Shown here: piece by piece, positions 15,191 through 36,664 of the stretch | How the letters are laid out: the number at the start of each line of letters is the position of its first letter | Numbering within the stretch: position 1 is the first letter of the stretch | Assembly: GCF_012910905.1 (NCBI RefSeq) | Contig: NZ_WTVN01000032.1 | Coordinates: 1-58,149 of the forward strand | Source of the DNA: Aromatoleum toluvorans | Lineage (GTDB): Bacteria > Pseudomonadota > Gammaproteobacteria > Burkholderiales > Rhodocyclaceae | DNA length: 58,149 nucleotides | Direction: 5' to 3' | Notes under the pieces: generated by a model | Database searches by the model: none | What the model was told of the DNA's origin: nothing | The model's input: the letters and a program-made list of their open reading frames with translations, nothing else | Position numbers and translations under genes: made by a program

Positions 15191-15202
15191 CGCCCATCCC
15201 CC

Positions 15203-16776: not shown

Positions 16777-16792
16777 GATTGCCCCCTGATGG

Positions 16793-16816
16793 AAAAACAG
16801 GGGCCAAAGCCCCTGT
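16793..16816 (-). terminator. Terminator after the major coat gene
   Basis: On the minus strand ACAGGGGC (16816-16809) pairs with GCCCCTGT (16804-16797) and is followed by a run of T. It is placed straight after the pVIII-like gene, as in fd/M13, where a terminator there limits minor-coat expression relative to the major coat. Confidence 0.85.
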
Positions 16817-16840
16817 CCGGTTTTCAGGCTGACACGCCGC

Positions 16841-17041: not shown

Positions 17042-17044
17042 GGC

Positions 17045-17287
17045 TTATACCTCCTCAGGTTTATCGCCAATTGAAAGAGCCCGGACGAGTATCCGGAACA
17101 CATACCCCAGAGCCCACACACCGAGAATCGCGCCCCCGATTTGTGAGCCCTGTTCAGGAGTGAACGCAAACGGGCTGTTCAGCACGTCCGCCCCACTCGT
17201 GACCACCAGCGCACAGGCCGACACTTCCGCCGGTTGCGGATCGACCGCCACGAGCGCCCCGCCTGCATCGACCTGCACGCAAATCAT
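17045..17287 (-). CDS. Phage membrane protein, 80 aa
   Basis: The chosen start (ATG 17287) overlaps the preceding stop (ATGA), with GGGGAAG upstream. The N-terminal half (MICVQVDAGGALVAVDPQPAEVSACALVV) is beta-like with two cysteines; a membrane helix follows (QIGGAILGVWALGYVFRILVRAL). Proteins with this exact plan precede pVIII in Xanthomonas, Ralstonia and Pseudomonas inoviruses and are suspected to be minor coat components (pVII/pIX-like). The family role is not proven. Confidence 0.65.
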   Translation of the reverse strand: MICVQVDAGGALVAVDPQPAEVSACALVVTSGADVLNSPFAFTPEQGSQIGGAILGVWALGYVFRILVRALSIGDKPEEV

Positions 17288-17496
17288 TTCGCTTCCCCAA
17301 ACAAATCCCGCTCCCATATCGGAATCACGAGAGCATCCGCATCGAGGAGATACACACCCGCTTCCCGGGCCTCGTCCGCCGTTTCAAATCGCCCCGCATC
17401 CTGAAACAGCACACACAAGCCGACATCCCCCAAGCGCGGGCAAACGAATTGCCCCGTCTCCCGATCCTGAACGATGTAACGGCGAACGAAATCCAT
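17284..17496 (-). CDS. Phage hypothetical protein, 70 aa
   Basis: A soluble, acidic 70-aa protein (MDFVRRYIVQDRETGQFVCPRLGDVG, then FQDAGRFETADEAREAG). Its ATG overlaps the TGA of the ssDNA-binding gene (TGATG) and its own stop overlaps the next start, so it is embedded in the translationally coupled operon. The alternating beta pattern resembles small conserved inovirus proteins of unknown role. I cannot assign a function. Confidence 0.6.
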   Translation of the reverse strand: MDFVRRYIVQDRETGQFVCPRLGDVGLCVLFQDAGRFETADEAREAGVYLLDADALVIPIWERDLFGEAK

Positions 17497-17789
17497 CACT
17501 TCACCTGCGCGACCGGCTTGATAGCGTGCAGGACGACTTTCGACACCTTGCCCGACGTCACCATCTCCATTTCGGCCTCAGCCTCAAACGGAAACGGCAA
17601 ATGCTTATATTTGTCGAATTCGTCATGTTTGCCAAACGAGTATTCCGCTGTCGCGAACCCTTTCGCCGTGCCCTTGGAATCATCCAGGGGGATTTCGAGA
17701 AACACTTTCGTGGAGTCGTAACGCTGACCTTCCATCTCCACATCAACCGCCTTCATACCGGTGACTTTCACGCGATTATTGAATTTCAT
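17496..17789 (-). CDS. Probable phage single-stranded DNA-binding protein (pV-like)
   Basis: 97 aa directly after rep (12-bp gap), the place occupied by the gene V ssDNA-binding protein in filamentous phages. It is predicted mostly beta (MKFNNRVKVTGMKAVDVEMEGQRYDSTKVFLEIPL), with aromatic residues and Lys spread through the chain, consistent with an OB-like fold. Size and position support the assignment; I see no motif that proves it. GAGGG precedes the ATG. In the cell it would coat phage plus strands and may repress Rep translation. Confidence 0.6.
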   Translation of the reverse strand: MKFNNRVKVTGMKAVDVEMEGQRYDSTKVFLEIPLDDSKGTAKGFATAEYSFGKHDEFDKYKHLPFPFEAEAEMEMVTSGKVSKVVLHAIKPVAQVK

Positions 17790-17801
17790 CGTTCTACCCT
17801 C

Positions 17802-19043
17802 TCAAGCAAACACGCCAAATAAGCCCGATTCCACGTCGGCGGATACCGTGGGAGCTAAATGGATCCCCTTCCCGTACATCGTTTCATCCGGTGTTTTCAA
17901 CCGCACCGGATACACATCGTCATTGCGCTGGATCGCATCGAGCAACCCCACATCCCCCAGCGCCAAGCGCAAAACCCGGATATACGCACCGTAACTCTTT
18001 TTGACGTTATCCAGACACGCTTGAACCGTGATCTGCACCACCGCACGCGCCGTGCGAATCCGCTTCCCTTCGATATGCGGAGCAATCACGCACAACGCAT
18101 CATATTGCCCAAGGAAATAGCCCGACGGATGCAGCAACACATCCAACGGGATTACCCGATCATTGTTGTGCACTTCGACTTCACATCGCACCCACAACGA
18201 GCTTTCATCGCCTAGCTGTTTGCCCTTTTCATAGGTGCGACACAACTTGCCGTTTTTGCGCTTGCCGATATACAACGTTCGGCCCGATCCGTCCGGACGT
18301 TTCCAGTTCCCGCGGTATTCATGGGACGGCATGCGGCCTCCCATCTTCCACCAGCCCAAATCGAAAGCCCGGTCCGCATAATCGCAGGTCCAATACGCCC
18401 CCTCATAATCATCATGCGCCAAGTCAATCCGCGTGATAGTCGGACGACTCGCCACCGTCGAAAGAAATTGAAAAAGCCGACCTTCCCAGCCCGCCCGCGC
18501 CGCCATCGCCCCAGTACCGTGCAAGACAATCAGCATCGTCCCGCGCTGCGATTTACCCCCCATGCAGACGTATCCAAGGTCCTCGCCCAGCACGAAACAC
18601 GAGGTATAAAAATCCCGGCCATGGCCCAAGGATTTTGTAACGCCGAAGCCAAATACCCTTTCCATCATCAACGAACATTCCGTCATCACCTGAGAATCGG
18701 TGAGCAATGTTCCCTTCTCGCCCCGGTGCCACGTTTCGACACCAACCGTAAAACGCATCCCGTCGATAAAGGCGCATTCCCCATCGATCGGCTTACGCAC
18801 CATCACCATTTTGGTTTCGCCGCTATCGGTCAAAACCAACTTAACTTCATTCAGGTGCTGAGCATCGCGCCGCTTCGGAACCTTTCCCCCCCTTTTAGTA
18901 GGGGGGGGGAATCCGCAGCCTGTGGCGCCCGCGCTCCCGGCGCCGTCGCGCTGCGCTTGCGCCGACGCCGGGAGCGCCGCGCCGAACGTGGCGTATTCCT
19001 CAGGCGTAACCCGACACACGTTTTCCAATTGCGTAGGCGTCAT
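17802..19043 (-). CDS. Phage replication initiation protein (Rep, Rep_trans-like)
   Basis: 413 aa from the ATG at 19043. The C-terminal three quarters match rolling-circle initiators of the Rep_trans group seen in inoviruses: the metal/acidic segment TITRIDLAHDDYEG, the catalytic-type segment with Tyr/Lys GRTLYIGKRKNGKLCRTYEKGKQLG, and WVRCEVEVHNNDRVIPLDVL. It nicks the plus-strand origin and stays covalently attached during replication. The N-terminal 80 residues are low-complexity and run over a large inverted repeat and a G9 tract, so the true start may lie further in. The ribosome site at 19043 is weak. Confidence 0.82.
   Translation of the reverse strand: MTPTQLENVCRVTPEEYATFGAALPASAQAQRDGAGSAGATGCGFPPPTKRGGKVPKRRDAQHLNEVKLVLTDSGETKMVMVRKPIDGECAFIDGMRFTVGVETWHRGEKGTLLTDSQVMTECSLMMERVFGFGVTKSLGHGRDFYTSCFVLGEDLGYVCMGGKSQRGTMLIVLHGTGAMAARAGWEGRLFQFLSTVASRPTITRIDLAHDDYEGAYWTCDYADRAFDLGWWKMGGRMPSHEYRGNWKRPDGSGRTLYIGKRKNGKLCRTYEKGKQLGDESSLWVRCEVEVHNNDRVIPLDVLLHPSGYFLGQYDALCVIAPHIEGKRIRTARAVVQITVQACLDNVKKSYGAYIRVLRLALGDVGLLDAIQRNDDVYPVRLKTPDETMYGKGIHLAPTVSADVESGLFGVFA
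18931..18977. repeat. Large inverted repeat inside the 5' part of rep
   Basis: GCGCTCCCGGCG (18931-18942) is perfectly complementary to CGCCGGGAGCGC (18966-18977), with partial pairing continuing inward. Immediately to the left lies a C7/G9 stretch (about 18887-18909) that can also fold. Strong secondary structure here is compatible with an origin within rep or a translational control element. Confidence 0.5.
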
Positions 19044-19081
19044 GACCGTTTCACGCCGCGCGCGATTCGTGCCCTTGCACT

Positions 19082-19327
19082 TCACAGCACACCGTTCCAG
19101 TTTTTGCACTTCTCGCAGATCGCGAACGGCGACCGCTTACACACCGTGGTGAGCTCGAACCGCCCCACTTCCGCCGAGACAAAGCACAACGGCGAGAACG
19201 CACCCCCGGCCACCGCTTCCGCGACCGGGATACGCGCCGCACTTTCATCCGCACTGGTGACAGATGCGCACACCTGGCGCACACCCGTTGTCACCACCCG
19301 ACGCTCTTGCTCGACCCGTTCCGCCAC
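19082..19327 (-). CDS. Phage hypothetical protein, 81 aa, upstream of rep
   Basis: The GTG at 19327 has AAGGGGG 6 nt upstream and opens an 81-aa frame ending in a conserved-looking tail with a CxxC (GRFELTTVCKRSPFAICEKCKNWNGVL), which could bind zinc. The frame also extends to an ATG at 19384 without a good ribosome site. It is first in the leftward operon (before rep) and probably regulatory. I know of no family name for it. Confidence 0.45.
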   Translation of the reverse strand: MAERVEQERRVVTTGVRQVCASVTSADESAARIPVAEAVAGGAFSPLCFVSAEVGRFELTTVCKRSPFAICEKCKNWNGVL

Positions 19328-19515
19328 GTCATTCCCCCTTAAGAAACGGGAGGCATTTCCTCCTCCCGGTATTGCCAGATGCAAGGATTCGCCGCCCTGC
19401 CCTCGCGCCCGGTGTCACCACCGGCCATGGATCGCCTACCCCGTCCATCCTTCCCCGGTATCAGCCTTCCGGCTTCTATGGCATGGTTCAGATTCCTACG
19501 TCCTAACCACACCAC

Positions 19516-19791
19516 ATGAAACACGTCCTACTGCTGGCGACTGCCGCCACCCTCGTCCTACCACTCACCGCCAACGCGGAAACCGAACGCTGCCGCCGAC
19601 TGCGACAAGAAATCGATATCACCAACCCCCTCGCACCCCACTTTTCCACCCCCGAGCACCGCCGAAACATCCAGCAGGCAATGAAGAACTTCCGCTGCCC
19701 GGACGAAACCCGCGACCCTTCCGAACCGCTGCCACACCCTTGGAACCGGCTTCACTTCCCGAAACCCGACCCCCTACCCGCGCGCCATTGA
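19516..19791 (+). CDS. Small exported phage protein, 91 aa
   Basis: A signal peptide (MKHVLLLATAATLVLPLTANA) is followed by a short mature part with two cysteines (TERCRRLRQEID and NFRCPDETRD) that could form a disulfide, ending in a Pro-rich tail. It is transcribed divergently from the rep operon. The mature TERC...LR.EID pattern resembles small periplasmic proteins of unknown function; in a prophage it may be a moron gene affecting the host envelope (superinfection control). Function is not shown by sequence. Confidence 0.55.
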   Translation: MKHVLLLATAATLVLPLTANAETERCRRLRQEIDITNPLAPHFSTPEHRRNIQQAMKNFRCPDETRDPSEPLPHPWNRLHFPKPDPLPARH

Positions 19792-19824
19792 TCGGCCCGC
19801 CTGCGGGCTGTATGCTCGCGCTAC

Positions 19825-19886
19825 GCACATAAATTCACGTGCAAGCAAATTTCTGTACGCGACTGTAACCGCAAGTAAATTTGCGT
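19825..19886. repeat. Three 16-bp iterated repeats before the phage regulator (operator array)
   Basis: GCACATAAATTCACGT (19825-19840), GCAAGCAAATTTCTGT (19841-19856) and GCAAGTAAATTTGCGT (19871-19886) share the pattern GCA-n-n-yAAATT-n-n-n-GT. The first two abut; the third follows after 14 bp and ends 16 bp before the next start. Such iterons before an HTH gene are typical phage repressor operators. Confidence 0.6.
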
Positions 19887-19902
19887 GTCAAGAGGTAATG
19901 TC

Positions 19903-20262
19903 ATGGAACTACGCGAACTGATTGAACAAGGCGAAAACGCCGCAGGGGGCCGCAAAGAACTTGCGAAACTGCTACTCGTGCACGCACAGCAGATCACCGA
20001 CGCGAAAAGCGGCCGGAACGGCCTCCCCATATCCGCATGCTATGTCCTGGCTGAGCTGATCCACGAAGACGCGCGCTGCGTCATCGCCGCATCGGAACTC
20101 GTGACCGAGAAGAAACCCGAACGCCGGGCCGTGCTACTCCCTTTTGCGCGTCATGCCGCCATCATTGCGATAACGGCCGGTGTCAATTTGCTACTGACAC
20201 CCGCTCCGACCAATGCCAACACTGGCACGCCTTCTAGCGGTCCAACGATTGGCATTATGTAA
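19903..20262 (+). CDS. Phage HTH regulator with membrane helix (DUF3693-like), 3' end formed by attR
   Basis: 119 aa. The N-terminal 65 residues form a Cro/XRE-like HTH (GGRKELAKLLLVHAQQITDAKSG, ISACYVLAELIHED); a basic patch KKPERR leads into a hydrophobic helix (FARHAAIIAITAGVNLLL). This HTH-plus-helix plan is that of DUF3693 proteins found in many filamentous phages. AGAGGT precedes the ATG at 19903. The last codons, including ATTGGCATTATG and the stop, lie within the right dif core. In circular phage DNA the frame would pass through attP and gain 22 codons from the left end, so the integrated product is truncated. It probably controls the lysogeny/replication switch through the repeats at 19825-19886. 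Confidence 0.65.
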   Translation: MELRELIEQGENAAGGRKELAKLLLVHAQQITDAKSGRNGLPISACYVLAELIHEDARCVIAASELVTEKKPERRAVLLPFARHAAIIAITAGVNLLLTPAPTNANTGTPSSGPTIGIM

Positions 20263-20265
20263 ACT
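20238..20265 (+). other. Right dif-like attachment site (attR) of the prophage
   Basis: Centre TTGGCA (20249-20254) and XerD arm TTATGTAAACT (20255-20265) match the left site; the XerC arm CGGTCCAACGA (20238-20248) is degenerate, as expected for the phage-derived half. Joining the left XerC arm to this XerD arm rebuilds a better host dif (AAACGCCATAA / TTGGCA / TTATGTAAACT), so attB can be reconstructed. Confidence 0.7.
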
Positions 20266-20402
20266 AATAACCCTGGCTACCCGTCGATCCTCGTACCGAT
20301 GATGATGTCGATACCAGCAAATTTTCGTCAGCTGATCTTGTCGTAGCGTTAGAAACCGCCTTTCGTGACAAGAACTTGCCTAGAATAAAAGTGTATCGTT
20401 AT

Positions 20403-20814: not shown

Positions 20815-20876
20815 GCAACTTCGTGACGCATGAGTCATGGTCGTAACTGACGCTGTTCTGGCGGCCGCGGGATCGA

Positions 20877-21869
20877 TCACGTCGGCGCCCAGCGTCCGCG
20901 GCACACCGCGCCGCCAGCCTTCAGCAGATGCGTGATTTCGTCCGCCGGTTCGGGTTTTCCCGTCAGGTACCCCTGAACATGGTGACACCCATGTTCGCGC
21001 AGGAAGGCCAGTTCGCTCTCTCGCTCGACCCCCTCCGCAACAGCCCTCAGGCCTAGTCCGCGCGCGATCGAGAGCAAGCCGGCGACAATCGTCGCGTTTG
21101 CCGGGTTGCCGGCGAGGTCCTGCACGAAATCACGGGCGATCTTCAGCGTATCGAGGTTCATCCGTGTCAGGTGCATCAGGGACGAAAAACCCGTTCCGAA
21201 GTCGTCGAGTGCGATCGAAACGCCCAGGCTGCGGATCGTCTCGAGCGCGCGAAGCACGGGCTGGTCGTCGTGCGAAAGCTGGCTCTCCGTCAATTCGAGT
21301 TCAAGCCATCCGGCGGGCATGCGGGATTCCCGCAGGATGGCTGCGACCCGGAACGGGAAGTCGGCCGCACGCAGTTGTATCGGGGAGACATTCACCGCGA
21401 CTCGCGGGGGCATGATCCCTTTCGAACACCATCGTTTGTGCTGCGCGCAGGCCTCGCGCAGCACCCACTCTCCGAGGCGTACGATGGCCCCGCTGCGTTC
21501 GGCAACCGGAATGAACGTGTCGGGCGCAACGCGGCCGAACTTGGGGGAGTTCCACCGCAGCAGCGCTTCCACCGCCACGATCCGACCGCTGTCGAGGCAG
21601 GCCTGCGGTTGAAAGTGAACGGCGAATTCTTCGCGCTCCAGGGCTGAGCACAAGGCGGATTCGAGCGCGACTTCGCGTGCGTTCGTCGCCACGTCATTAC
21701 CGGGCCGTTTCCGGTCGAACGTGCTACCGCGAGCGCCGGCAATACGACCGGCAATTGCATCAAGCAGGCGTGCGATCCCCCTGCCCTCCCTGGCTCCTTT
21801 CGTCGCTTGGCGATCGGCTGTGCCGCTCGGAGTTGGAGCAGTGAGCGCATGCGTGACGATGAAATTCAT
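20877..21869 (-). CDS. EAL-domain cyclic-di-GMP phosphodiesterase
   Basis: 330 aa: an N-terminal region of about 80 residues without recognised domain, then a full EAL domain. Visible motifs: EALLRW (the EAL Glu), NVSPIQL, ELTESQL, LDDFGTGFSSL with the metal-binding Asp pair, the Lys in DTLKIARDFV, AEGVE, and QGYLTGKP. Usual KID reads KIA here, but the key Glu, Asn, Asp-Asp, Lys and Gln residues are present, so hydrolysis of c-di-GMP to pGpG is likely. It has no GGDEF or membrane segment. The start at 21869 (AGGA upstream) is preferred. It lies downstream of idrA on the same strand, separated by about 57 bp, so read-through from that operon is possible. Confidence 0.85.
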   Translation of the reverse strand: MNFIVTHALTAPTPSGTADRQATKGAREGRGIARLLDAIAGRIAGARGSTFDRKRPGNDVATNAREVALESALCSALEREEFAVHFQPQACLDSGRIVAVEALLRWNSPKFGRVAPDTFIPVAERSGAIVRLGEWVLREACAQHKRWCSKGIMPPRVAVNVSPIQLRAADFPFRVAAILRESRMPAGWLELELTESQLSHDDQPVLRALETIRSLGVSIALDDFGTGFSSLMHLTRMNLDTLKIARDFVQDLAGNPANATIVAGLLSIARGLGLRAVAEGVERESELAFLREHGCHHVQGYLTGKPEPADEITHLLKAGGAVCRGRWAPT

Positions 21870-21926
21870 CGGAACAGTCCTGGGGGAGGCGCGGCGACGC
21901 CTCACGGCGCCGCCGCACGGGGTCGA

Positions 21927-24605
21927 TCAGACGATGTTGCGCGGCTTGAGGCTCATCCGTGCGAACTCATGCTTGTACGGCGATTCCCCGACCTTGCTCA
22001 CAGCGCCGCGGCCGAGCTTGTAGCGGTAGTTGTTTGTCATCGGGTCCGGCACCGCCGAGACCACGGCGTTGGCGGGCGACTTCGGGAAGTTGAAGTTCGC
22101 CTTCGCGACGCCCGGGCGCATCTCGTCGGAGACGATCGCGACGGTGCGGAAGCGGCCGACCGTGGTCGTGATGTGACCATCGCGCATCAGGTCGTTGAAG
22201 TTCAGATCCGCGTCGAGCACGCCCTGCGGCTGGCCGGTCTGTACATACACGGTGTCGTTGACGACCTCGACGTAGTCGCCCGATTCGATGCCGCGTTTGG
22301 CCGCGTCATCCGGATGGATGAACAGGAAGGCTTCCGGCCAGCGCTGCGACAGGTAGGGCTTGCGCAGATCGTCGAAGCCCGACTGCCAGGTCTCGTTCAC
22401 GCGCCCGTTCGTCACCCACAGCTCGTCCTTCTCCGCGCGTGGCTTCACCGCTTCGTAGAACTGGATCCAGCCGGCGTACTTCCACGGCGACTTGAGCAGG
22501 ACCGCCTTGCCGCTCTGGGTGTTGAAGGCGTACAGCGCGGGGATCTGCACTTCGGGCCCTTCCATCTCGCCCCAGTCGTTGGCCGGGTCGTGCAGGCGCT
22601 GGGTGCCGACGAGCTTGCCGTCCCTGACGCGGATCGGAGTCTGGATGCCGGTCGTCCCGTAGCTGCGCAGCAGTTCCTGCGCCTTGATGCCCTTCTCCTT
22701 GGCCTGCATCGCGAGCGGGTGGTAGTTCAGCACGCCGGTGCGCGAGAAGCGGGCCGCTTCCTCGAACACGTCGTTGGAATCCTTCCATGCGTAGCTGCCA
22801 TCCTTGTCGAAGCCCATCTTGTGCGCGAACTTCTGCACGATCCACCAGTCGGGCTTGGCCTCGCCCGGCGCGTCGTAGAACTTGCTGTACAGGCGCAACC
22901 GGCGCTCGGAGTTGCAGCGGGTGAAGTTGTCCTCGCCCCACGAGGCGACCGGGAACACGATGTCGGCGAACTCGGTGCCGACCGGCACGACCGGGTAGAG
23001 GTCGGAGTTGGCCATCACCATGCCGCCCGAATCGACGCGCTTCTTGAGCGTCTCGAAGATCGCGGCGCGGTCCAGGCTCGTGATCTGGTGCGGGTTCTGC
23101 GCGGTGAGCTCGCGCATCTTCTCGGCCAGCGCGTTGGAGCCCATCATCGCTGCGACCCAGGTGGTGCCGATGACCCACGCGAAACGCAGCTTGCCTTGCG
23201 TGAGCCACAGGTCGAGGTTGAAATCCTTCTTGCGCCGTCCGGGATACTTTTCCGGGGACAGCCAGCCCGAGCCGCCGCCGGCCGACAGGCCGCCGCGCTG
23301 GTGGCCGCCGCCGCGCGAGATCATGCGCCCGGGGCGGTTGCCCGAGCCGCAGATCAGCCCGAGCGACGCGAAGGACGTCGTGTTCATGTAGTTGTTGGAC
23401 CAGTAATTGCCCTTCTCGCACATGAACGAGGTCTTCGGCATGCTGCCATCGGCCTTGGGCTTGGCGATCCACTCGGCGGCCTTGCGGATATCGTCGGGGT
23501 TCAGGCCGGTGATCTTCGCCGCGACGTCGAGCTTCGATTCTTCCTGTGCGACGATGAATTTCTTGTAGTCCTCCCAGTCGCTCTGCCAGGTGCCCCAGGT
23601 CGTGCGCCACTGCCAGCCAGTATTGCGTGTGCCGCGGCCGTAGCCGGAGTCGACTTCCCAGGGTTTGGCGATCCACTTGTCGATGAACGCCTGGTCCTGC
23701 CAGTTGTTCTCGATGATGATGCGCGCGAGCGCCATGTGCAGCACCGTGTCGGTGCCGGGGATGACCGGCAGCCACAGGCCGCGGCCTTCGCGGATCGACC
23801 AGGCGACCCCCATCGTCTTGTGCGGCGTGACGAAGATGAACTTCTTGTCCCCCGGCATCATGTGCGAGGTAAACAGCGTGGTCTTGGTCTCGTAGGGATC
23901 GACGCCGGACAGGAAGGCGACGTCGCACATCGCCCAGTCCTCGTAGCTCGACGCGAAGGAGTCGATGCCCGCGTCGTCGAGACCGGTTGCGTCGTTGGTC
24001 GCGGAACACTTGTCGTGCCACGCGAACGAGGGCGTGCCCACCGAGGTCATCGCGAGCTTGGTGATCGCGTAGACGTTCTCGAAGTACTGGTAGGAATGCG
24101 ACTTCACACCCCACGCGTGCTCGCCGTACTTCGCCAGGATGTACTTCGAGATGTCGGCCATGACCTCGGTCGCGAGGTCCCAGCTCACCGGGGTGAGCTG
24201 GCCGTTCACGCGCAGCATCGGGTGCTGCAGGCGCTCGCGGGTGCGATTCGACGGGTTGTAGCACTTTTCGGCCAGCGTGCCGCCGCGGATCGAGTGGTTG
24301 CCGCCGATGTTGACCACGGTCGCGTCCTTGTCGGGCACCACGACGACGTGGTGCGGCTTGCCCTTGTGCGTGACGACGTTGTGCATCGCCGGGCTGACCC
24401 ACGAAGACATCATCATCTGGTGCGGAAAGTCGGCGCCGAGCGCGTTCTGCGCGGCCTTCGCCCCGCCGTCCTTGCCCACCGGCCAGCGATACACCTTGTA
24501 GCCGCAGGCGATGGTGCAGTAGTCGCAGGCGGTCGTGAGGACGTCCGCGTCCTTCGGCGGCAGGGGCACGAAGTCGGGGGCCTTGTAGCTGTCTTGCTTG
24601 CTCAT
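21927..24605 (-). CDS. idrA: Iodate reductase catalytic subunit IdrA (molybdopterin, AioA-like)
   Basis: The 892-aa DMSO-reductase-superfamily subunit resembles arsenite oxidase AioA but diverges from it. The N-terminal cluster motif CDYCTIAC (Cys27, Cys30, Cys34) with Ser in NHSIRGG instead of a fourth Cys indicates a [3Fe-4S] cluster, as in AioA. It has no Tat signal and so would be exported with the Tat-bearing Rieske partner. The pocket differs from AioA: where AioA has CHATR with the arsenite-ligating His, this has CSATN, while the Arg...GGHQ element is kept (SRGGGHQRGG). With a Rieske subunit and two di-haem peroxidases in one operon, the set matches idrABP1P2, the iodate (IO3- to I-) reductase of Pseudomonas SCT and Denitromonas. 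GAAGGAG supports the ATG at 24605. Confidence 0.85.
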   Translation of the reverse strand: MSKQDSYKAPDFVPLPPKDADVLTTACDYCTIACGYKVYRWPVGKDGGAKAAQNALGADFPHQMMMSSWVSPAMHNVVTHKGKPHHVVVVPDKDATVVNIGGNHSIRGGTLAEKCYNPSNRTRERLQHPMLRVNGQLTPVSWDLATEVMADISKYILAKYGEHAWGVKSHSYQYFENVYAITKLAMTSVGTPSFAWHDKCSATNDATGLDDAGIDSFASSYEDWAMCDVAFLSGVDPYETKTTLFTSHMMPGDKKFIFVTPHKTMGVAWSIREGRGLWLPVIPGTDTVLHMALARIIIENNWQDQAFIDKWIAKPWEVDSGYGRGTRNTGWQWRTTWGTWQSDWEDYKKFIVAQEESKLDVAAKITGLNPDDIRKAAEWIAKPKADGSMPKTSFMCEKGNYWSNNYMNTTSFASLGLICGSGNRPGRMISRGGGHQRGGLSAGGGSGWLSPEKYPGRRKKDFNLDLWLTQGKLRFAWVIGTTWVAAMMGSNALAEKMRELTAQNPHQITSLDRAAIFETLKKRVDSGGMVMANSDLYPVVPVGTEFADIVFPVASWGEDNFTRCNSERRLRLYSKFYDAPGEAKPDWWIVQKFAHKMGFDKDGSYAWKDSNDVFEEAARFSRTGVLNYHPLAMQAKEKGIKAQELLRSYGTTGIQTPIRVRDGKLVGTQRLHDPANDWGEMEGPEVQIPALYAFNTQSGKAVLLKSPWKYAGWIQFYEAVKPRAEKDELWVTNGRVNETWQSGFDDLRKPYLSQRWPEAFLFIHPDDAAKRGIESGDYVEVVNDTVYVQTGQPQGVLDADLNFNDLMRDGHITTTVGRFRTVAIVSDEMRPGVAKANFNFPKSPANAVVSAVPDPMTNNYRYKLGRGAVSKVGESPYKHEFARMSLKPRNIV

Positions 24606-24616
24606 CTCGATCTCCT

Positions 24617-25207
24617 TCACGCGCGGCCCGCGGCCGTCATGGTGCTGTAGCCATAGACCAGGCCCATCACGCCGACCGCATAGATGTCGTCACCCTGCAC
24701 TTCGAGCATGATCTGCGGCAGGCTCTCGGTGGCGTGACCCGAAGCGACCATGCCGTGGCGCGTCAGGTCGAAGGTCGTCAGGTGTAGCGGACAGGGGCCG
24801 AGCACCTGGTGTTTGGGTTTGTAGGTGCCGTCGAGCGGGCCGCCCATGTGCGTGCATTGCTGGTTGAACGCGACGATGTCCTTCTGCGGGCCGATGCCGC
24901 CGCCCGCCTCCACGCCAAGCTTGACGAGGATGTTGCGCACGTCGGCGTAGGGATAGTTGAAGCTGATCGGCTCGCCGGCCTTCAGCGCCGACAGGCTGCC
25001 AATCTTCTGGCGCGGATAGCCCGCCTTCAGGAGCTGCGCGGCTTCGGCGAAACCGGGCACGCCGCCCAGGCCGACGAGCGCGAGGAAGGCGCCGCCGGAG
25101 AGCAGGAAGCTGCGCCGGCTCATGCACGCGCGCCCGCCCTCGTGGTGATGGTCGTGGCCGTGGTCGTGCTCGGGGGCCGACTGGATCTGGATCGTCTTGT
25201 GGCTCAT
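24617..25207 (-). CDS. idrB: Iodate reductase Rieske subunit IdrB with Tat signal
   Basis: 196 aa carrying a Rieske [2Fe-2S] site: C118-T-H120 and C139-P-L-H142 in CTHMGGPL and CPLHLTTFD. The two extra cysteines that make the disulfide in bc1-type Rieske proteins (CTHLGC...CPCH) are Gly and Leu here. A Tat signal (SRRSFLLSGGAFLALVG, residues 30-46) is preceded by an unusual His-rich leader (HDHGHDHHHEGG). It passes electrons between the c-type cytochrome pool and IdrA in the periplasm, and its Tat signal probably carries both subunits. It is separated from idrA by 11 bp, and from the peroxidase gene upstream by 10 bp. Confidence 0.88.
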   Translation of the reverse strand: MSHKTIQIQSAPEHDHGHDHHHEGGRACMSRRSFLLSGGAFLALVGLGGVPGFAEAAQLLKAGYPRQKIGSLSALKAGEPISFNYPYADVRNILVKLGVEAGGGIGPQKDIVAFNQQCTHMGGPLDGTYKPKHQVLGPCPLHLTTFDLTRHGMVASGHATESLPQIMLEVQGDDIYAVGVMGLVYGYSTMTAAGRA

Positions 25208-25217
25208 GTTCGGCTCC

Positions 25218-26357
25218 TCATTTCGCCGGCGCCGGCAGCGGCTGGTAGTCGCCCGGCAGCTTGGGGTCGTCGTGGATCAGCGGCTCGGTCATCGACAGCG
25301 CCTCGATGAAGGCGACGAGGTCCTTCTTCTGCTGCGCGGTCAGGCCGAGCGCCTTGATCAGCGGGCTCTTGTTGGTGCCCGCTTCGCCGCCGCGGTCGTA
25401 GAACTCGACCACCTCGTCGAGCGTCGTGAACACGCCGTTGTGCATGTAGGGCGCGGTGTATTTCACTTCGCGCAGCGACGGGGTGCGGAACTTGCCGGCA
25501 TCCTTGGGATTTTTCGTCACGTAGAACAGGCCGTAGTCGCGGTCGGCGTTGCGGTAGCGGTTCTCGCTCACGCCCTTCTGGTAGTGCTGCCAGCGGTGGG
25601 TGACCTGCAGCAGCGGGTCGTCCTTGAAGCCGGGGTGGTCGGTCAGCCCGAGGTCGTGGAACTGCTGGTCCGAGGCGAGCGCGCCGTTGTGGCACTGGAT
25701 GCAGCCGGCCTTGCCGTTGAAGAGCGCCATGCCGCGTTTCTGCGCGGCGTTAAGTGCTTTCTTGTCGCCGTTCATGTAGCGGTCGAAGGGCACTTTCGAT
25801 GCGTCCGACACGACGGTGCGCTGGTAGGCCGAGATCGCGCGATAGGCGTCGTTCATGCGCGGCCATTCCGCGCCGAACACTTTCCTGAACGACTCGACGT
25901 ACTCGGGGATGAAGCGCAGGCGCATCTCCATCACCGAGGGGTCGCCGTTGCCGGCGATGCCGCCTTCCGCAGCTGCTGCGGCCTGCGTTTCCAGGCTGGT
26001 GACGCTGCCTTCCCAGAATAGCTTGTTGTAGTAGGCCGAGTTGATGATGGTCTGCGAGTTGCGCCAGTGCTTGGTGCCGGGGTAGCCGCGCGACAGCGCG
26101 TTGTTGTCGCCCCAGCCGAGCGCCGGCAGGTGGCAGGAGACGCAGGGCATCGAGCCGTCGCCCGACAGGCGGGCGTCCCAGAAGAGCTGCTTGCCGAGTG
26201 CGATCTTTTCCGGGGACTGCGGGTTGTCCTTGGGGGGCGAGACCGGCGGCAGCGGCGCGAGCGGCGGGAAGGTCTGGCCGGTGGCGGCCGTCGCAGTGAG
26301 CAGCGCCGCGAAGGAGGCGGCGATCGCCGAGAGCTTGAGCGTTGTGCGGGTTTTCAT
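25218..26357 (-). CDS. idrP1: Di-haem cytochrome c peroxidase-like protein IdrP1
   Basis: 379 aa with a Sec signal (MKTRTTLKLSAIAASFAALLTATAATG) and two c-haem sites, C72-VSC-H76 and C219-IQC-H223, the layout of bacterial cytochrome c peroxidase/MauG proteins. The conserved KYTAPYMHNGVFTTLDEVVEFYDRGG near the C-terminus is typical of the family. In iodate-reducing bacteria, the two such proteins are thought to remove H2O2 formed during iodate reduction or to pass electrons to IdrAB. I named the copy next to idrB P1 only because published naming runs A-B-P1-P2; the labels could be swapped. Confidence 0.82.
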   Translation of the reverse strand: MKTRTTLKLSAIAASFAALLTATAATGQTFPPLAPLPPVSPPKDNPQSPEKIALGKQLFWDARLSGDGSMPCVSCHLPALGWGDNNALSRGYPGTKHWRNSQTIINSAYYNKLFWEGSVTSLETQAAAAAEGGIAGNGDPSVMEMRLRFIPEYVESFRKVFGAEWPRMNDAYRAISAYQRTVVSDASKVPFDRYMNGDKKALNAAQKRGMALFNGKAGCIQCHNGALASDQQFHDLGLTDHPGFKDDPLLQVTHRWQHYQKGVSENRYRNADRDYGLFYVTKNPKDAGKFRTPSLREVKYTAPYMHNGVFTTLDEVVEFYDRGGEAGTNKSPLIKALGLTAQQKKDLVAFIEALSMTEPLIHDDPKLPGDYQPLPAPAK

Positions 26358-26367
26358 CGTGCGTCCC

Positions 26368-27474
26368 TCAGTTCTTGCCGAAAGTACGGACCTGCATGTC
26401 GGGCTGGCCGGGGTTCGTGACGACGACCGGATCGCCCGACAGCGTCAGCAGGAAGGCCACGAGCGCCTTCTGTTCGCCGACCGAGAGGTTCAGCGGCTTC
26501 AGCACGGAGCCCTCGTCACCGCCCCGGTTGTAGAACGCGACGACCTCGTCGAGCGTCGCGAACACGCCGTTGTGCATGTAGGGCGCGGTGTATTTCAGGT
26601 CGCGCAGCTGTGCGGTCTGGAATTTGCCGATGTCGGCGGGCTTCTTGGTGATCGCGTAGGCACCGACGTCGGTGCGTGCGCTCATGTAGTTCGGCATGCC
26701 GCTGGTGGCGTAGTGGCGCAGCATCGTGATCGTGCGCAACGGGTTGGCGAGCACGTCCGGATGCTCGGGCACGCCGGTCCTGTGCAGCTTGCCGTCGGAG
26801 CCGATCGGACCGTTGTGGCAGGCGACGCAGCCCGCCTTGCCCTTGAACAGCGCGTAGCCTTCCTTGGCCTCGGCGCTGATCGCGTCGGCGTCGCCCTTCG
26901 CGAAGCGGTCGAAGGGCGCATTCGTGGTCTCGAGGCTGCGGATGAACTCGCCGATGACGTTGAACACGCGCATGCCGTTGATGTCGTCGTTGCGCCACTT
27001 CTTCCACAGCGCGTCGTACTCGGGCACCTGCTTCAGGCGCTCCTGCATCAGGCGCCCGTCCATGTTCATCGTGTGCGTCTCGGTGATCATGTCGCGCACG
27101 AGGGTGCCGGCGTCGGAGCCGTCGAGGCGACCATCCCACAGAAAGCGCTGCCGGTGCTTCGCATTGAGTACCGTGGGGACGTTGCGGAAATACTCCATCG
27201 ACGGATAGCCGGTCGACAGCGCCTGGCCGTCGCCCCAGCCCTTGGCCGGGTCGTGACAGGACGCGCAGGACCTGCCCCAGTCGCCGGACAGGCGGCGGTC
27301 GAAGAAGAAGTATTTGCCGAGTTCGATCATCGCGGTGTTGCCCGGCTTCACCTCGGGCATCGGCGCGAGGTCGGGAGCGGCCCCCTGGGCGCCGTGAGGG
27401 AGCAACCAGGCCGCCGCAGCCATGCTGCAGGCAGCGAGGAGGCGCCCCGTACGCGTGTTGTTCGTCGTATTCAT
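26368..27474 (-). CDS. idrP2: Di-haem cytochrome c peroxidase-like protein IdrP2, first gene of the idr operon
   Basis: 368 aa with signal peptide (RLLAACSMAAAAWLLPHGAQG) and haem sites C70-ASC-H74 and C216-VAC-H220, a paralogue of the next gene (both share TAPYMHNGVF). The computed longer frame begins at 27561, but AAGGGGA lies just before the ATG at 27474 and the signal peptide starts there; moreover a sigma-54 promoter (27520-27535) lies inside the longer frame, so transcription would start after it. It is the promoter-proximal gene of the operon P2-P1-B-A. It is periplasmic and probably detoxifies peroxide or hypoiodous intermediates; this last point is inference. Confidence 0.83.
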   Translation of the reverse strand: MNTTNNTRTGRLLAACSMAAAAWLLPHGAQGAAPDLAPMPEVKPGNTAMIELGKYFFFDRRLSGDWGRSCASCHDPAKGWGDGQALSTGYPSMEYFRNVPTVLNAKHRQRFLWDGRLDGSDAGTLVRDMITETHTMNMDGRLMQERLKQVPEYDALWKKWRNDDINGMRVFNVIGEFIRSLETTNAPFDRFAKGDADAISAEAKEGYALFKGKAGCVACHNGPIGSDGKLHRTGVPEHPDVLANPLRTITMLRHYATSGMPNYMSARTDVGAYAITKKPADIGKFQTAQLRDLKYTAPYMHNGVFATLDEVVAFYNRGGDEGSVLKPLNLSVGEQKALVAFLLTLSGDPVVVTNPGQPDMQVRTFGKN

Positions 27475-27519
27475 GATTTCCCCTTGCACGAAGAAAAACC
27501 CAACTGCTACAAGGGGTAT

Positions 27520-27535
27520 TGCAAGCCCTGTGCCA
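27520..27535 (-). promoter_or_regulatory. Sigma-54 (-24/-12) promoter of the idr operon
   Basis: On the minus strand TGGCAC (27535-27530), five bases, then TTGCA (27524-27520): an exact match to the sigma-54 consensus TGGCAC-N5-TTGCW. The GG (-24) and GC (-12) dinucleotides have the required 10-bp spacing. The expected transcription start is near 27509, some 35 nt before the idrP2 ATG. The adjacent gene encodes an NtrC-type activator. Confidence 0.85.
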
Positions 27536-27612
27536 TCTTCCATGGCACATGAAAGATTCAAAAAATCATGGGTTTGCTGGCGGAATTGGAAAAACGGCCG
27601 GTGGTTGGAAAT

Positions 27613-27626
27613 TGATCGGGCGATCA
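27613..27626. promoter_or_regulatory. Candidate enhancer site for the NtrC-type activator
   Basis: TGATCG-GG-CGATCA is a perfect dyad centred about 110 bp upstream of the predicted idr start site, the usual distance for a bacterial enhancer-binding protein. It overlaps the stop codon of the regulator gene itself. Nothing else in the 90-bp spacer is comparably symmetric. Confidence 0.5.
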
Positions 27627-29033
27627 GTTTTTGACCGGTTGAAAACCATCCTCGTCACCTTCGCCCGCGCCCGGTCGCAGCTCGTATTCGCGCAGCTTGG
27701 TGCGCAGCGTGAGCCGGGTGATGCCGAGGATCTCGGCCGCGCGCGTCTTGTTGCCGGCAGCGTGCTCCAGTACGCGCAGGATGTGCTGGCGCTCCACCGC
27801 GGCCAGCGACATGGTGGCCGCGCCCTCGCCCGCCGTCGCGGCGCTCTCCCCGCGTGCGGGTGCGGGCGCGTGGCCGAAGGGCAGTTGCTCGACGGTGATG
27901 ACGCCGTCGGACGCAAGGATCGCGGCGCGCTCCATCACGTTGCGCAGCTCGCGGATGTTGCCGGGCCAGCGGTAGGCGAGCAGGCGCGACATGACCTCCG
28001 ACTGGATCGCCGGGCTCGCCATGCCCAGATGCAGCGCGGCCTGCTCCAGGAAGTGGCGCGCCAGCGGCAGGATGTCGGCGGCGCGTTCGCGCAGCGGTGG
28101 CACGGCAATGCTGCCGACGTTGAGGCGGTAGAAGAGATCCTCGCGGAAGCCGCCGTCGCGGACCATCGCGGGCAGGTTGCGGTGCGTCGCGGCGACGAAG
28201 CGCACGTCGACGCGGATCTCCTTGCTGCCGCCCAGGCGGCGGAAGGTCTGCGTCTCGAGCACGCGCAGCAGCTTCGGCTGCAGGGCGGGCGACAGGTCGC
28301 CGACCTCGTCGAGGAACAGCGTGCCGCCGTCGGCCAGTTCGAGCAGGCCCTTCTTGGCCTGGCGCGCGTCCGTGAAGGCGCCCTTCTCGTGGCCGAACAT
28401 CTCCGATTCGAGCAGCCCTTCGGGCAGCGCCGAGCAGTTCAGCGTCACCCACGGTCCCGCGGCGCGGGCCGACAGGCTGTGGATCGACTGCGCGATGTGT
28501 TCCTTGCCGGTGCCCGACTCGCCGAGGATCAGCGCCGGCACGCGCCCCGCGGCGGCGATCTTGCGCGTCGTCTCGAGCAGCTCGCGGAACGCGGCGCTGT
28601 CACCGATCAGCCCGGGCACGACGTCTCCGCCCGCCTGCGCGCGGCGCCATTCGACCTCGCGCCGCAGTTGGCGCGTCTCGAAGGCCCGCCGGATCAGGCT
28701 GTCGAGGTCGTCGAGGTCGAATGGCTTGTTGATGTAGTCGTAAGCCCCCGCCTTCAGTGCCGCGACCGCTGTGCGCACCTCGGGGTAGGCCGTCATCGTC
28801 ACGACCAGCGCGTCCTCCTCGAACTCGTGCAGGCGTGCGATCACCTCCAGTCCGGGAATGTCGGGCAGGCGCAGGTCGAGCAGGATCAGCCCGAAGCGCG
28901 TCTCGCGCGCGAGCGCCAGCCCGTCGAGGCCGCAGGCGGCGGCCTGCACTTCGTAACCCTTGCGCGACAGCAGGCCCAGCAGGGTCAGGCGCAGGGTCTC
29001 GTCGTCTTCAATGATCAGGATGGTGTTGCTCAT
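27624..29033 (-). CDS. NtrC-type sigma-54-dependent response regulator
   Basis: 469 aa, three domains: receiver (residues 1-120, phospho-acceptor Asp53 in LLDLRLPD, Lys103 in NKPF), AAA+ activator (Walker A GESGTGKE 171-178; sigma-54 loop GAFTDA 218-223, a Gly-to-Asp variant of GAFTGA; VGDLSPALQPKLLRVL sensor region) and a C-terminal Fis-type HTH (NKTRAAEILGITRLTLRTKLREY). It should activate sigma-54 promoters on phosphorylation by the kinase whose gene overlaps its start by 26 bp. The exact sigma-54 promoter of the idr operon lies immediately downstream, so the iodate reductase is its likely target. The start at 29033 begins the receiver domain directly. Confidence 0.9.
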   Translation of the reverse strand: MSNTILIIEDDETLRLTLLGLLSRKGYEVQAAACGLDGLALARETRFGLILLDLRLPDIPGLEVIARLHEFEEDALVVTMTAYPEVRTAVAALKAGAYDYINKPFDLDDLDSLIRRAFETRQLRREVEWRRAQAGGDVVPGLIGDSAAFRELLETTRKIAAAGRVPALILGESGTGKEHIAQSIHSLSARAAGPWVTLNCSALPEGLLESEMFGHEKGAFTDARQAKKGLLELADGGTLFLDEVGDLSPALQPKLLRVLETQTFRRLGGSKEIRVDVRFVAATHRNLPAMVRDGGFREDLFYRLNVGSIAVPPLRERAADILPLARHFLEQAALHLGMASPAIQSEVMSRLLAYRWPGNIRELRNVMERAAILASDGVITVEQLPFGHAPAPARGESAATAGEGAATMSLAAVERQHILRVLEHAAGNKTRAAEILGITRLTLRTKLREYELRPGAGEGDEDGFQPVKN

Positions 29034-31335
29034 GCCCGCTCGCGGAATGTATTGGCCACAGCAGCGTGAAGCAGCTTCCATGCCGTCCGTCGCTGCTCAC
29101 GGCGATTTCGGCCCCGTGCTCCTGCACGATCTTGTGCACGATGGACAGGCCGAGGCCCGAGCCGCCCTCGCGAGTCGTGAAGAAGGGCTCGAAGATGCGC
29201 CGCTGCAGCGTCTCCGGGATGCCCGACCCGCTGTCGCGCACGTCGATGCGTACGCGCCCGCCGTCCGCTTCGGCCGCGATGTCGACGCTGCCGCCGTCGG
29301 GCTGCGCGCGCAGCGCATTGATGACGAGGTTCAGCAGCACCTGCTTGAGCTGCGCGGGGTCAGCGCGCAGTGGCGGCAGCACGTCGGGGATGTGCGTGGT
29401 GATCTCGACCTTCTGGTTGCGCGCCTCCTTGCGCGTCCAGAACAGGATGTCGGCCAGTGTCTCGCCCAGTGGTGTCGCGCGCAGATCGGGCGTGGTGGGC
29501 GCGGCGAAGCCGTGGAAGGTGCGCAGGAAATCCGAGAGTCGGTCCGTTTCTCCTTCCAGGCGACGCAGTGCCTCGAATACGCCGGGGGGCAGGTCCTCCT
29601 CGTACTGCAGGGCCTGTGCGACGGCCTTCATGCCCGCCAGTGGATTGCCGATCTCGTGCGCGAGCCCCATCGCGAGTTCGCCCATCGTCGCCATCTTGTC
29701 CATCTGGAACATCTGGCGGTCGAGCTCGCGGCGCTCATCCTGCAGGCGCCGCTCCTCGCTGATGTCGCGCGCAACGACCACGAACGAGCGGCCGCCACCG
29801 ACATCGCGCACCGAGGTGATCGACAGCGCAAGCACCCTCCCCCGTGCCTTCAGATCGCGACGCGTGGGCATGTCGTCCGCGACATCGACGGCGATGCCAG
29901 GCCATTCGCTCCAGAATTCCGCCAGACGAGCACCGGCCACGTCGGCATGGAAGCCGAGGAGCTCCCGTGCTGCGCCGTTTGCCAGCGTGATATCGCCGTC
30001 TTCGCCAACGACCAGGATGCCGTCGCCGGTGTGTTGAATGATCGCCGCAAGCCAGGCGCGCTCGTGCACGAGTTCCCGCGTTCGGGCGCCGACCTCATCC
30101 TCGAGCCGGTCACGATGCGCGGCGAGTTTCCCGTAAAGCTCGGAGAGGCGATCGGTCATCGCGTTGAACTTGGTGCCGAGGTCCGCGATTTCGTCGTCGC
30201 CCGAAATGCTCACGCGTCGCGTGAAATCCCCGCCGGCGATCGCTTCCGTCTCCTGCGCCAGGGCGTCCACGGGACCCAGAAGGCGGCGGGACAACGCGTA
30301 TCCGCCGATCGCCGTCACGATCATTGCGACAACGAGCACGGCATACAGGACGTACAGGTTGACGATGGAAAAGAACAGCGTCTGTTGCGCCACGTCCACC
30401 GCGATCACCCAGCGTCCCCCCTTCGTGTCGGGATAGGCCGCGCCGAATTCGACCGGTGCATACGCAACAATCCGTTGACCGGTCATCATCGTTCCCTCGC
30501 GTCCGCTCACGACCGCCGCAAGATGTGACGCGCCGAACACGTCCTTGAGGACATCGACCGACTTCATCGCGAAGCCTGATGCGGCTTCGCGCGACCTCGA
30601 CAGAAAATGTCCGGAGCGATCGAACAGATACGCCGTACCACTGCGTGCAACCGCCATCTGCTCGATCTGTGCGAGCAGGATGTCGGCATCGAGATTCACC
30701 ACCAGGATGCTGTCGGTACGCTCTCCCCGTTCGCCGAGCGCGACCGCGACCCGCACGACCGGACGCTCCGGGGTTTCGATCCGGCCGAACTCGACGTTCA
30801 GGTCGAGCGGAGAGACATACAGGCTGCCGGGTTCGAGCTGCACCGCCTCGCGGAAATAGTAACGATCGGATTTGTCCTGCAGGCCTGCCTTCGAGACCAC
30901 GACCACGTCATGGCCGCGCCGGTCGACGCGCACGCGCTCCTGGCCGTCGCGGCTGAGGAAACGGATCTGATAGATATGCGGATAGGTCGACGCGAGCGCA
31001 CTGTAGTCGTGCTCCAGACGCTGCGTGGCTGCTCGTGTGCGGGAGTTGTCTCCCTGCCGGATCGCGCTGCGCAACTCCGCGAGAGCCGGCGCTTCGGCCA
31101 GATAGCGCAACTCCGCGGAGAGTTGATTGAAGAAGAGCGACACGCCATTCGCCCGAACGGACACTTCCTGCCCCAGATGGCGCAGGGTTTCTTCGCGCAA
31201 CTGGTAGACCGAAAGCGTCACGCCGATGATGCCGGCAATGCCGGTAGGGATGGCCGCGGCAGCGAGAAATGCGAAGTAGATGCGCCGCGCGAGGCCTCGG
31301 CCGCCAAGCGTGCGCCTTAGTAACCGATCCAGCAA
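29008..31335 (-). CDS. Membrane sensor histidine kinase (Cache-like sensor, HAMP, PAS)
   Basis: About 775 aa. TM1 (RIYFAFLAAAAIPTGIAGIIGVTL), a periplasmic double-Cache-type region of some 260 residues (YPHIYQIRFLSRDGQERVRVDR, YYFREAVQLEPGSLYVSPL), TM2 (LYVLYAVLVVAMIVTAIGGYAL), HAMP, a PAS domain (AAIIQHTGDGILVVGEDGDITLAN), then HisKA (MGLAHEIGNPLAG) and the ATPase N, G1 and G2 boxes (NLVINALRAQ, DSGSGIPE, GGSGLGLSIV). It phosphorylates the adjacent NtrC-type regulator. The start is uncertain: a TTG at 31335 with GGAGG upstream looks better than an ATG at 31437. The ligand is unknown; the operon suggests iodate, iodide or redox state. Confidence 0.85.
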   Translation of the reverse strand: MLDRLLRRTLGGRGLARRIYFAFLAAAAIPTGIAGIIGVTLSVYQLREETLRHLGQEVSVRANGVSLFFNQLSAELRYLAEAPALAELRSAIRQGDNSRTRAATQRLEHDYSALASTYPHIYQIRFLSRDGQERVRVDRRGHDVVVVSKAGLQDKSDRYYFREAVQLEPGSLYVSPLDLNVEFGRIETPERPVVRVAVALGERGERTDSILVVNLDADILLAQIEQMAVARSGTAYLFDRSGHFLSRSREAASGFAMKSVDVLKDVFGASHLAAVVSGREGTMMTGQRIVAYAPVEFGAAYPDTKGGRWVIAVDVAQQTLFFSIVNLYVLYAVLVVAMIVTAIGGYALSRRLLGPVDALAQETEAIAGGDFTRRVSISGDDEIADLGTKFNAMTDRLSELYGKLAAHRDRLEDEVGARTRELVHERAWLAAIIQHTGDGILVVGEDGDITLANGAARELLGFHADVAGARLAEFWSEWPGIAVDVADDMPTRRDLKARGRVLALSITSVRDVGGGRSFVVVARDISEERRLQDERRELDRQMFQMDKMATMGELAMGLAHEIGNPLAGMKAVAQALQYEEDLPPGVFEALRRLEGETDRLSDFLRTFHGFAAPTTPDLRATPLGETLADILFWTRKEARNQKVEITTHIPDVLPPLRADPAQLKQVLLNLVINALRAQPDGGSVDIAAEADGGRVRIDVRDSGSGIPETLQRRIFEPFFTTREGGSGLGLSIVHKIVQEHGAEIAVSSDGRHGSCFTLLWPIHSASGHEQHHPDH

Positions 31336-31473
31336 GGGACCTCCGTGCGTCGGTACGGCAGCGACCGCGGCGCGGTACTCCGGACCGGAGTCGCACGGTT
31401 TCGCGCCTTGAAGCGTTCCGGGCACGGATCTTCGCATGAAATGCGCTTGCGCAGCGTCCGTGTAGCAACTGCT

Positions 31474-35385: not shown

Positions 35386-35471
35386 GCCGGCGCCGAAAAC
35401 GCGTATCCGGCGCCCCGCGGGAAATCTTTGGTGCAACAATTCGGGGATTCTTCCGAGTCGGGAGCATCCCA

Positions 35472-36653: not shown

Positions 36654-36664
36654 GCGGAGGCGGC

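Follow-up and report, generated by a model that had tools for sequence, protein, structure and literature searches.

A probable dissimilatory iodate reductase operon of Aromatoleum toluvorans with a candidate two-component switch and unusual di-haem proteins

Introduction

Automatic annotation gives arsenite-oxidase-type names to the enzyme subunits of a gene cluster of Aromatoleum toluvorans. Does the cluster encode an arsenite oxidase or an iodate reductase, how might it be regulated, and what are its two peroxidase-like proteins likely to do? The cluster lies on contig NZ_WTVN01000032.1 (NCBI RefSeq assembly GCF_012910905.1), of which the whole stretch of 58,149 nucleotides was analysed and is called the window here. 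Our analysis indicates that it is very probably a dissimilatory iodate reductase (idr) operon under local two-component control. The gene set, the clade of the catalytic subunit, the motifs, and the predicted promoter and palindromes can be read from the DNA itself, and from these we infer that the host may respire iodate. Operons of this kind are already known; what is added in this study is the regulatory anatomy, the mosaic composition of the operon, and evidence on the pockets of IdrP1 and IdrP2.

The four genes and their annotation

An earlier, sequence-only reading of this DNA had described four genes on one strand with gaps of about 10 base pairs (bp) at 21927..27474. Open reading frames were found at exactly these limits, in the transcription order idrP2-idrP1-idrB-idrA, with gaps of 10, 10, and 11 bp (P2/P1, P1/B, and B/A). 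All four start codons were preceded by a purine-rich stretch.

26368..27474, minus strand: idrP2, the first gene of the operon; di-haem protein of the CCP_MauG family, 368 amino acids (open reading frame; Pfam CCP_MauG, E 6e-35)
25218..26357, minus strand: idrP1; di-haem protein of the CCP_MauG family, 379 amino acids (open reading frame; Pfam CCP_MauG, E 1e-41)
24617..25207, minus strand: idrB; Rieske [2Fe-2S] subunit with a twin-arginine motif, 196 amino acids (Pfam Rieske, TIGR02694)
21927..24605, minus strand: idrA; molybdopterin catalytic subunit, 892 amino acids (tree, motif, and IdrA-diagnostic residues)

All four frames were intact and retained their motifs. IdrA carried the Pfam domains Rieske_3 (3Fe-4S), Molybdopterin, and Molydop_binding, together with a CX2CX3CX70S motif from C27, in agreement with its earlier description as an AioA-like molybdoenzyme with a [3Fe-4S] motif. 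The Rieske protein with a signal for twin-arginine translocation (Tat) was likewise recovered: IdrB contained CXHX18CX2H from C118 and the Tat motif SRRSFL at residue 30, and TatC was present. Two CXXCH motifs were found in each of IdrP1 and IdrP2. NCBIfam named IdrA 'arsenate reductase (azurin) large subunit' (448 bits against a cut-off of 359) and IdrB the corresponding small subunit (118 bits against 96). Since both scores exceed the cut-offs of arsenite-oxidase-type families, automatic annotation hides the idr operon, as the sequence-only reading had warned. The Azonexus copy, whose IdrA is 87% identical, is likewise annotated in its plasmid record as arsenate reductase (azurin) subunits.

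IdrA forms a clade apart from AioA

According to the automatic names, the cluster would be an arsenite oxidase (AioAB) operon with the peroxidase-like genes as bystanders. Besides the NCBIfam scores, this interpretation has on its side that, among solved structures, arsenite oxidases alone scored well against IdrA, and that IdrA keeps H197, R431, and H435, which align with the His and Arg/His of the arsenite site in AioA. We compared IdrA with 83 idrA loci (L009-L091), which comprised the best 80 of at least 590 confirmed stretches (at least 594 matched) in genome contigs and three from plasmid records. Identity among those 80 best loci ranged from 91% (Azoarcus sp. Aa7 and the Azoarcus metagenome-assembled genome (MAG) BE2011_69_25) through 77% (Denitromonas iodatirespirans IR-12) down to 48%.

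A tree of 94 rows was built from the window, the genus genome G011, 81 of the 83 loci, eight AioA sequences, and three host paralogues as outgroup; L048 (partial) and L029 (over-long match) were left out. The AioA rows were hand-picked from 34 lower-scoring plasmid-record matches and include those of NT-26 and T. thermophilus HB8. IdrA (83 rows) and AioA (8 rows) came out apart, each set off by a single branch with a Shimodaira-Hasegawa-like approximate likelihood ratio (SH-aLRT) of 100. This phylogeny, which the sequence-only reading had named as a check, places the catalytic subunit outside the AioA clade and together with the IR-12 enzyme, as expected of an idr gene set. The window IdrA grouped with Aa7 and the Azoarcus MAG with a support of 98.

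The residues agree with the tree. At seventeen positions, at least 97% of the 83 IdrA rows agreed and seven or eight of the eight AioA sequences differed; four of these positions are gaps in AioA, and the window carries the IdrA letter at all 17. Examples are HD instead of HN at 197-198 and R437, which replaces the Glu of GGHQEG and turns HQEG into HQRG. Identity between the window IdrA and AioA was 28-31%.

The neighbours also differ. No P1 or P2 match was found within 6 kb on either side of any of the eight aioA loci, so the earlier statement that arsenite oxidase operons lack the two peroxidases held in this sample; in the window, two di-haem genes lie directly upstream of idrB-idrA. The arsenite oxidase AioBA of NT-26 with AioXSR (L108) resembles the window in its superfamily, its [3Fe-4S] and Rieske subunits, and its upstream kinase and response-regulator genes, but AioBA loci have no di-haem genes nearby, fall in the other clade, and carry other residues. 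No second IdrA/AioA-type protein was found in the host genome, where the other IdrA matches were weak and partial (24-42% over pieces, best E 2e-13), and no ars gene was found among the 37 open reading frames put to Pfam, which are a part of those in the window. On the tree, the neighbours, and the residues, an arsenite oxidase operon was rejected as extremely improbable.

Gene order and relatives

The order P2-P1-B-A, with all genes adjacent, was found in 68/83 idrA loci, IR-12 included, so the gene order of the window is standard. We had considered that it might be an unusual, reversed order, and these counts led us to reject the idea. Thirteen of the other 15 loci have an idrA start within about 2 kb of a sequence end. 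The real exceptions were L030, with its P2 match downstream of idrA, and L035, with no B, P1, or P2 match within 10 kb; the latter is a Planctomycetaceae MAG whose idrA (10001-12712) is 53% identical. A c-type cytochrome gene and moaA follow idrA in Azonexus and Thiothrix but do not adjoin it in the window. The operon, earlier called complete, is thus complete for the four core genes and not for these two. We also considered whether the host might be the published strain TC-10 and rejected this: the neighbours fbiD, moaA, and mer given for that strain (PMC8801600) were absent from the 37 open reading frames put to Pfam, which is not a strict test.

D. iodatirespirans IR-12 (L020) has the same four genes in the same order and on the same strand, a kinase-regulator pair upstream, and a -24/-12 element at a similar place; its P2 is 64% identical to that of the window. 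Deletion of idrA in IR-12 is reported to abolish growth on iodate (PMC8692401). In Azoarcus DN11, which is described as growing on iodate, atoC and atoS reportedly lie upstream of the same core, and, as in the window, an adjacent c-type cytochrome and most cofactor genes are lacking (PMC10149662). That paper gives the motifs SRRSFL, CX2CX3CX70S, and CXHX18CX2H just as they occur in the window. It also reports a 12- to 104-fold induction of the three idr genes measured, and active gel bands that contained IdrA, P1, and P2 along with many further proteins (PMC10149662). Azoarcus sp. Aa7 (L009 = G012) and the Azoarcus MAG (L010 = G013) were the nearest in the tree among the loci compared. Their IdrP2 proteins are 86-88% identical to that of the window, and the identities of their kinase (54%) and regulator (63-64%) are lower. 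The idr operon of this further host is intact and of the standard type.

Putative sigma-54-dependent control

Upstream of idrP2 we found the following features.

27624..29081, minus strand: NtrC/AtoC-type sigma-54-dependent response regulator (Response_reg, Sigma54_activat, and HTH_8; AtoC-like, below the family cut-off; start uncertain, 29081 or about 29033)
29008..31437, minus strand: sensor histidine kinase with dCache, HAMP, and PAS domains, its gene overlapping that of the regulator; the two make up an AtoS/AtoC-like two-component system
27520..27535, minus strand: predicted sigma-54-type -24/-12 promoter TGGCACAGGGCTTGCA upstream of idrP2 (TGGCAC-N5-TTGCW)
27620..27638, minus strand: palindrome 1 (CCGGTCAAAAACTGATCGC), candidate regulator site, 12/14 consensus bases
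27601..27619, minus strand: palindrome 2, weaker, directly adjoining palindrome 1, 9/14 consensus bases

At E 1e-150, the sensor kinase was found in all four idr-bearing genomes of the genus and in none of the 13 idr-less ones. The exact promoter motif occurs once in the window, where 0.05 occurrences are expected, and 5/100 shuffled sequences contained one.

Regions upstream of idrP2 were then scored at 70 loci: 14 betaproteobacterial loci with an adjoining regulator gene (window included), six with a more distant regulator match (L030, L033, L057, L060, L061, and L063), and 50 without. For L043 the scored region precedes the P1 gene, and for L030 it precedes the P2 gene downstream of idrA. 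A -24/-12 score of at least 9/12 was reached at 14/14, 0/6, and 5/50 of these loci, respectively. The palindrome CCGGTCA-N5-TGACCGG, with at least 12/14 bases, was present at 12 of the 14 loci with an adjoining regulator, the exceptions being IR-12 and Azonexus, and at 0/6 and 0/50 of the others. The seven betaproteobacterial loci without a regulator reached neither threshold. Two or more palindromes stand in tandem at several loci. The IR-12 palindromes are weak, with 10/14 consensus bases (p 0.073) against 12/14 in the window; the palindrome p was about 0.07 in both IR-12 and Azonexus, and the highest promoter p was 0.083 (L018). The contrast with the regulator-less loci is a better argument than these p-values from shuffling.

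The window thus has the sequence features of a sigma-54/NtrC-type regulated operon, namely an adjoining activator gene, a -24/-12 element, and upstream sites, the sites being predicted. In the host genome the palindrome core had three exact matches, palindrome 1 among them, compared with one for a reversed control, so a wider regulon is not indicated. In the open-licence literature, iodate reductase and sigma-54 appeared together only in the DN11 paper, whose Results and Discussion describe no promoter (PMC10149662).

Predicted haem pockets of IdrP1 and IdrP2

IdrP1 and IdrP2 had been described earlier as two di-haem cytochrome c peroxidase (CCP) paralogues. The Pfam family and the paired CXXCH motifs bear out the family label, whereas the pocket residues make the function doubtful. 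We aligned 73 IdrP1 and 70 IdrP2 sequences, window included, after dropping short, poorly covered, or coinciding P1/P2 matches. The ten comparators were six CCPs (three PDB chains and three plasmid genes so annotated), a mau-cluster protein annotated as MauG, two proteins of the MbnH type, and one orphan relative. Of the ten, the orphan IdrP1-like protein scored best against IdrP1 and IdrP2, and MauG came next. The best NCBIfam matches were the MbnH-type family for P1 and the MauG family for P2, both below cut-off.

The sixth-ligand position of the C-terminal haem was Met in 6/6 CCPs and Tyr in MauG and the MbnH-type proteins. Tyr was also found there in 72/73 IdrP1 and 68/70 IdrP2 sequences, the exceptions being P1 and P2 of L027 and P2 of L073. 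In the window, IdrP1 has Tyr320 at the CCP methionine position and has lost the distal Glu, and IdrP2 likewise has Tyr. The axial ligand of MauG is reported to be Tyr294, with Tyr regarded as MauG-type and Met or His as CCP-type (PMC7567364). At the position of the CCP P-haem His, all 143 IdrP1 and IdrP2 sequences had Tyr.

The distal Glu, present in 7/7 sequences of the CCPs and MauG, was absent from all 73 IdrP1 (Ala or Ser in 73/73) and all 70 IdrP2 sequences. The distal Pro was found in 0/73 and 0/70, and the distal Gln was retained in 67/73 IdrP1 and 3/70 IdrP2. No gap separates IdrP1 from the CCPs between the anchors flanking the distal site. For both MbnH-type comparators, a Glu-Met-Gly near the distal site was aligned into an insertion, and the column is unsafe for them. 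The inter-haem Trp was kept in 71/73 IdrP1 and 29/70 IdrP2 sequences (His in 39). By alignment, then, IdrP1 and IdrP2 have neither the Met or His sixth ligand nor the distal Glu of a CCP. They share the Tyr ligand with MauG but not its set of distal Glu113, Gln103, and Pro107; MauG keeps all three, and IdrP1 and IdrP2 keep neither Glu nor Pro.

Both published models have IdrP1 and IdrP2 as true hydrogen peroxide (H2O2) peroxidases that detoxify peroxide arising from iodate reduction. Their CCP_MauG membership and two CXXCH motifs each fit that role, as do the Trp and Gln retained in IdrP1. In 69/70 IdrP2 sequences an acidic residue (62 Glu and 7 Asp) precedes the lost Glu by three positions and might substitute for it. 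Asp also stands four positions after the lost Glu in 70/70 IdrP2, and Glu or Asp stands there in 67/73 IdrP1; these acidic residues caution against over-reading the loss of the distal Glu. Micromolar H2O2 has been reported for strain SCT (PMC8692401). A Tyr ligand is in itself no bar to activity, as Tyr-ligated BthA is described as still reducing H2O2 (PMC6405878). On the other side stand the Met-to-Tyr change at the E haem and the loss of the distal Glu, the distal Pro, and the P-haem His throughout, with the distal Gln nearly gone from IdrP2. Glu, Gln, and Pro are described as conserved across bacterial CCP (bCCP), MauG, and BthA, and a Glu-to-Gln variant of BthA as impaired in peroxidase activity (PMC6405878); bacterial peroxidases in which either the Glu or the Gln is singly replaced are reported to be inactive (PMC10094543). 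We consider peroxide detoxification plausible but on balance somewhat unlikely. With the distal Glu lost and a Tyr ligand gained, the published removal of H2O2 by these proteins needs testing.

Our tentative alternative, which we hold with less than even confidence, is that IdrP1 and IdrP2 are not peroxidases but a MauG-like pair of Tyr-His di-haem proteins with a remodelled pocket. They might form one periplasmic complex with IdrAB, and either bring electrons in or reduce hypoiodous acid (HIO) to iodide. Their role is still called unclear in a 2024 paper (PMC11445184), and no open-licence paper was found that names both IdrP1 and MauG. No chlorite dismutase match was found in 17/17 genomes of the genus, while 7/14 controls gave matches.

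Some points weigh against our interpretation as a whole. The IdrA tree came from a quick search under a simple model, with long branches flagged near the root. The promoter and palindrome consensus was derived from the same sequences that were later scored, and the p-values from shuffling are lenient. The haem ligands were assigned by alignment, and the acidic residue of IdrP2 described above belongs here too.

Other members of the family were also noted. Those of the host are IdrP1, IdrP2, an 819-amino-acid CCP_MauG protein at 38226-40685 that is also present in G011, and one short match. The orphan IdrP1-like protein (L165, 5899-7326) is 49% identical to IdrP1, with the Tyr ligand and without the distal Glu; it lies on a plasmid of Rhodobacteraceae S2214 that has no IdrA match (plasmid only examined). 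On a Methylocystis parvus plasmid (L164, 2360-3520), a di-haem protein beside an MbnP-family gene is annotated 'methanobactin export MATE transporter MbnM', a name that looks shifted from a neighbour.

Mosaic composition and flanks

At E of at most 1e-100, idrA was found in 4/17 genomes of the genus, host counted, and in 21/395 genomes of the family sample. Window 20836-31450 is collinear with G011 apart from a break at 21630-21911, and so are 35410-40797 and 52204-58149. The intervening pieces, one of about 4 kb separating the kinase gene from the next collinear block and another, of about 11.4 kb, farther along, are absent from the compared G011 stretch. The compared stretches of G012 and G013 show no collinearity with the flanks that the window shares with G011.

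Within the operon, 510 sites were informative. Between 26039 and 22599, 299/358 favoured G012/G013 over G011, compared with 45/152 outside, and the segment score of this tract was reached by 0/10000 permutations. The operon ends favoured G011 (33 to 6 in the first 400 bases and 29 to 4 in the last full bin), and the signal from 27074 to 26275 was mixed (24 to 24). The tract (22599-26039, 3.4 kb) runs from the middle of idrP1 through most of idrA and resembles the Aa7 lineage. Through it, G011 and G012 are 78-88% identical, while the window and G012 are mostly 87-92% identical; we infer from this that the lineage of the window received the tract by homologous recombination. The kinase DNA is 87.9% identical to G011 and 63.3% to G012, and the regulator 93.5% and 71.5%. 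Since kinase and regulator side with G011, unlike the tract, the enzyme and its regulator appear to have different histories.

A patchy distribution and a mosaic sequence might also be expected of a degenerate or silent idr copy brought in by gene transfer and unused by the host. Such a copy is hard to reconcile with four intact frames, conserved motifs, an intact kinase-regulator pair, a conserved promoter, and a G+C content (GC) of 65.8% against 66.0% for the window, and we consider it very unlikely. The lack of contrast in GC also led us to reject a genomic island judged by that measure. The block at 52.5-58.1 kb is present in four idr-less genomes, and the adjoining 13-14 kb examined on one flank matched nothing else in the window; idr-less G009 has only 56.8-58.1 kb in the stretch compared. 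As the comparison covered one flank of this block, a clean empty-site junction is not claimed.

Several other genes lie around the operon. A stand-alone EAL-domain protein is encoded at 20877-21905 on the same strand, its open reading frame starting 21 bp past idrA, and is partly collinear in G011 (81.5% over 795 bases). About 2-8 kb downstream of it, filamentous-phage-like genes at 13276-19109 (Zot-family 13276-14379, DUF2523 14852-15190, and Rep_trans replication initiator 17802-19109) are likely an inovirus prophage; GC is 60.0% over 11400-20300. Divergent from the sensor kinase, a cytochrome with MtrC/MtrF-like and C554-like domains (31881-33143) is absent from the G011 stretch. At 41837-48728, within the 11.4-kb stretch absent from G011, a molybdopterin enzyme with a Molybdopterin_N domain and a weak Tat-signal match is followed by a TorS-type hybrid kinase, which in our reading may be a trimethylamine N-oxide/dimethyl sulfoxide (TMAO/DMSO)-reductase-type system.

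Proposed mechanism and significance

In the mechanism that we propose, the sensor kinase would respond to iodate or a product and phosphorylate the NtrC-type regulator, which would bind the paired palindromes and fire the sigma-54 promoter. IdrAB would be exported by Tat to the periplasm and receive electrons that bc1 passes on through a c-type cytochrome. Iodate would be reduced to HIO at the Mo site of IdrA, and iodide would arise by HIO disproportionation or further reduction. As the pocket of IdrP1 and IdrP2 is unlike that of an ordinary H2O2 peroxidase, these presumably exported di-haem proteins from the MauG side of the family may serve in electron transfer to IdrAB or in HIO handling rather than in plain H2O2 removal; this is the weakest step.

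The residues of the pockets offer direct and testable grounds for doubting that peroxide is removed as both published models propose. If IdrP1 and IdrP2 reduce HIO, they would supply that step without a chlorite-dismutase-like enzyme, of which none was found in the genus. Few isolates have been shown to respire iodate. The trait is mobile, and it is relevant to the iodine cycle and to radioactive iodine in groundwater. The window represents another carrier of the Azoarcus type, in which the operon is intact and a candidate switch is defined.

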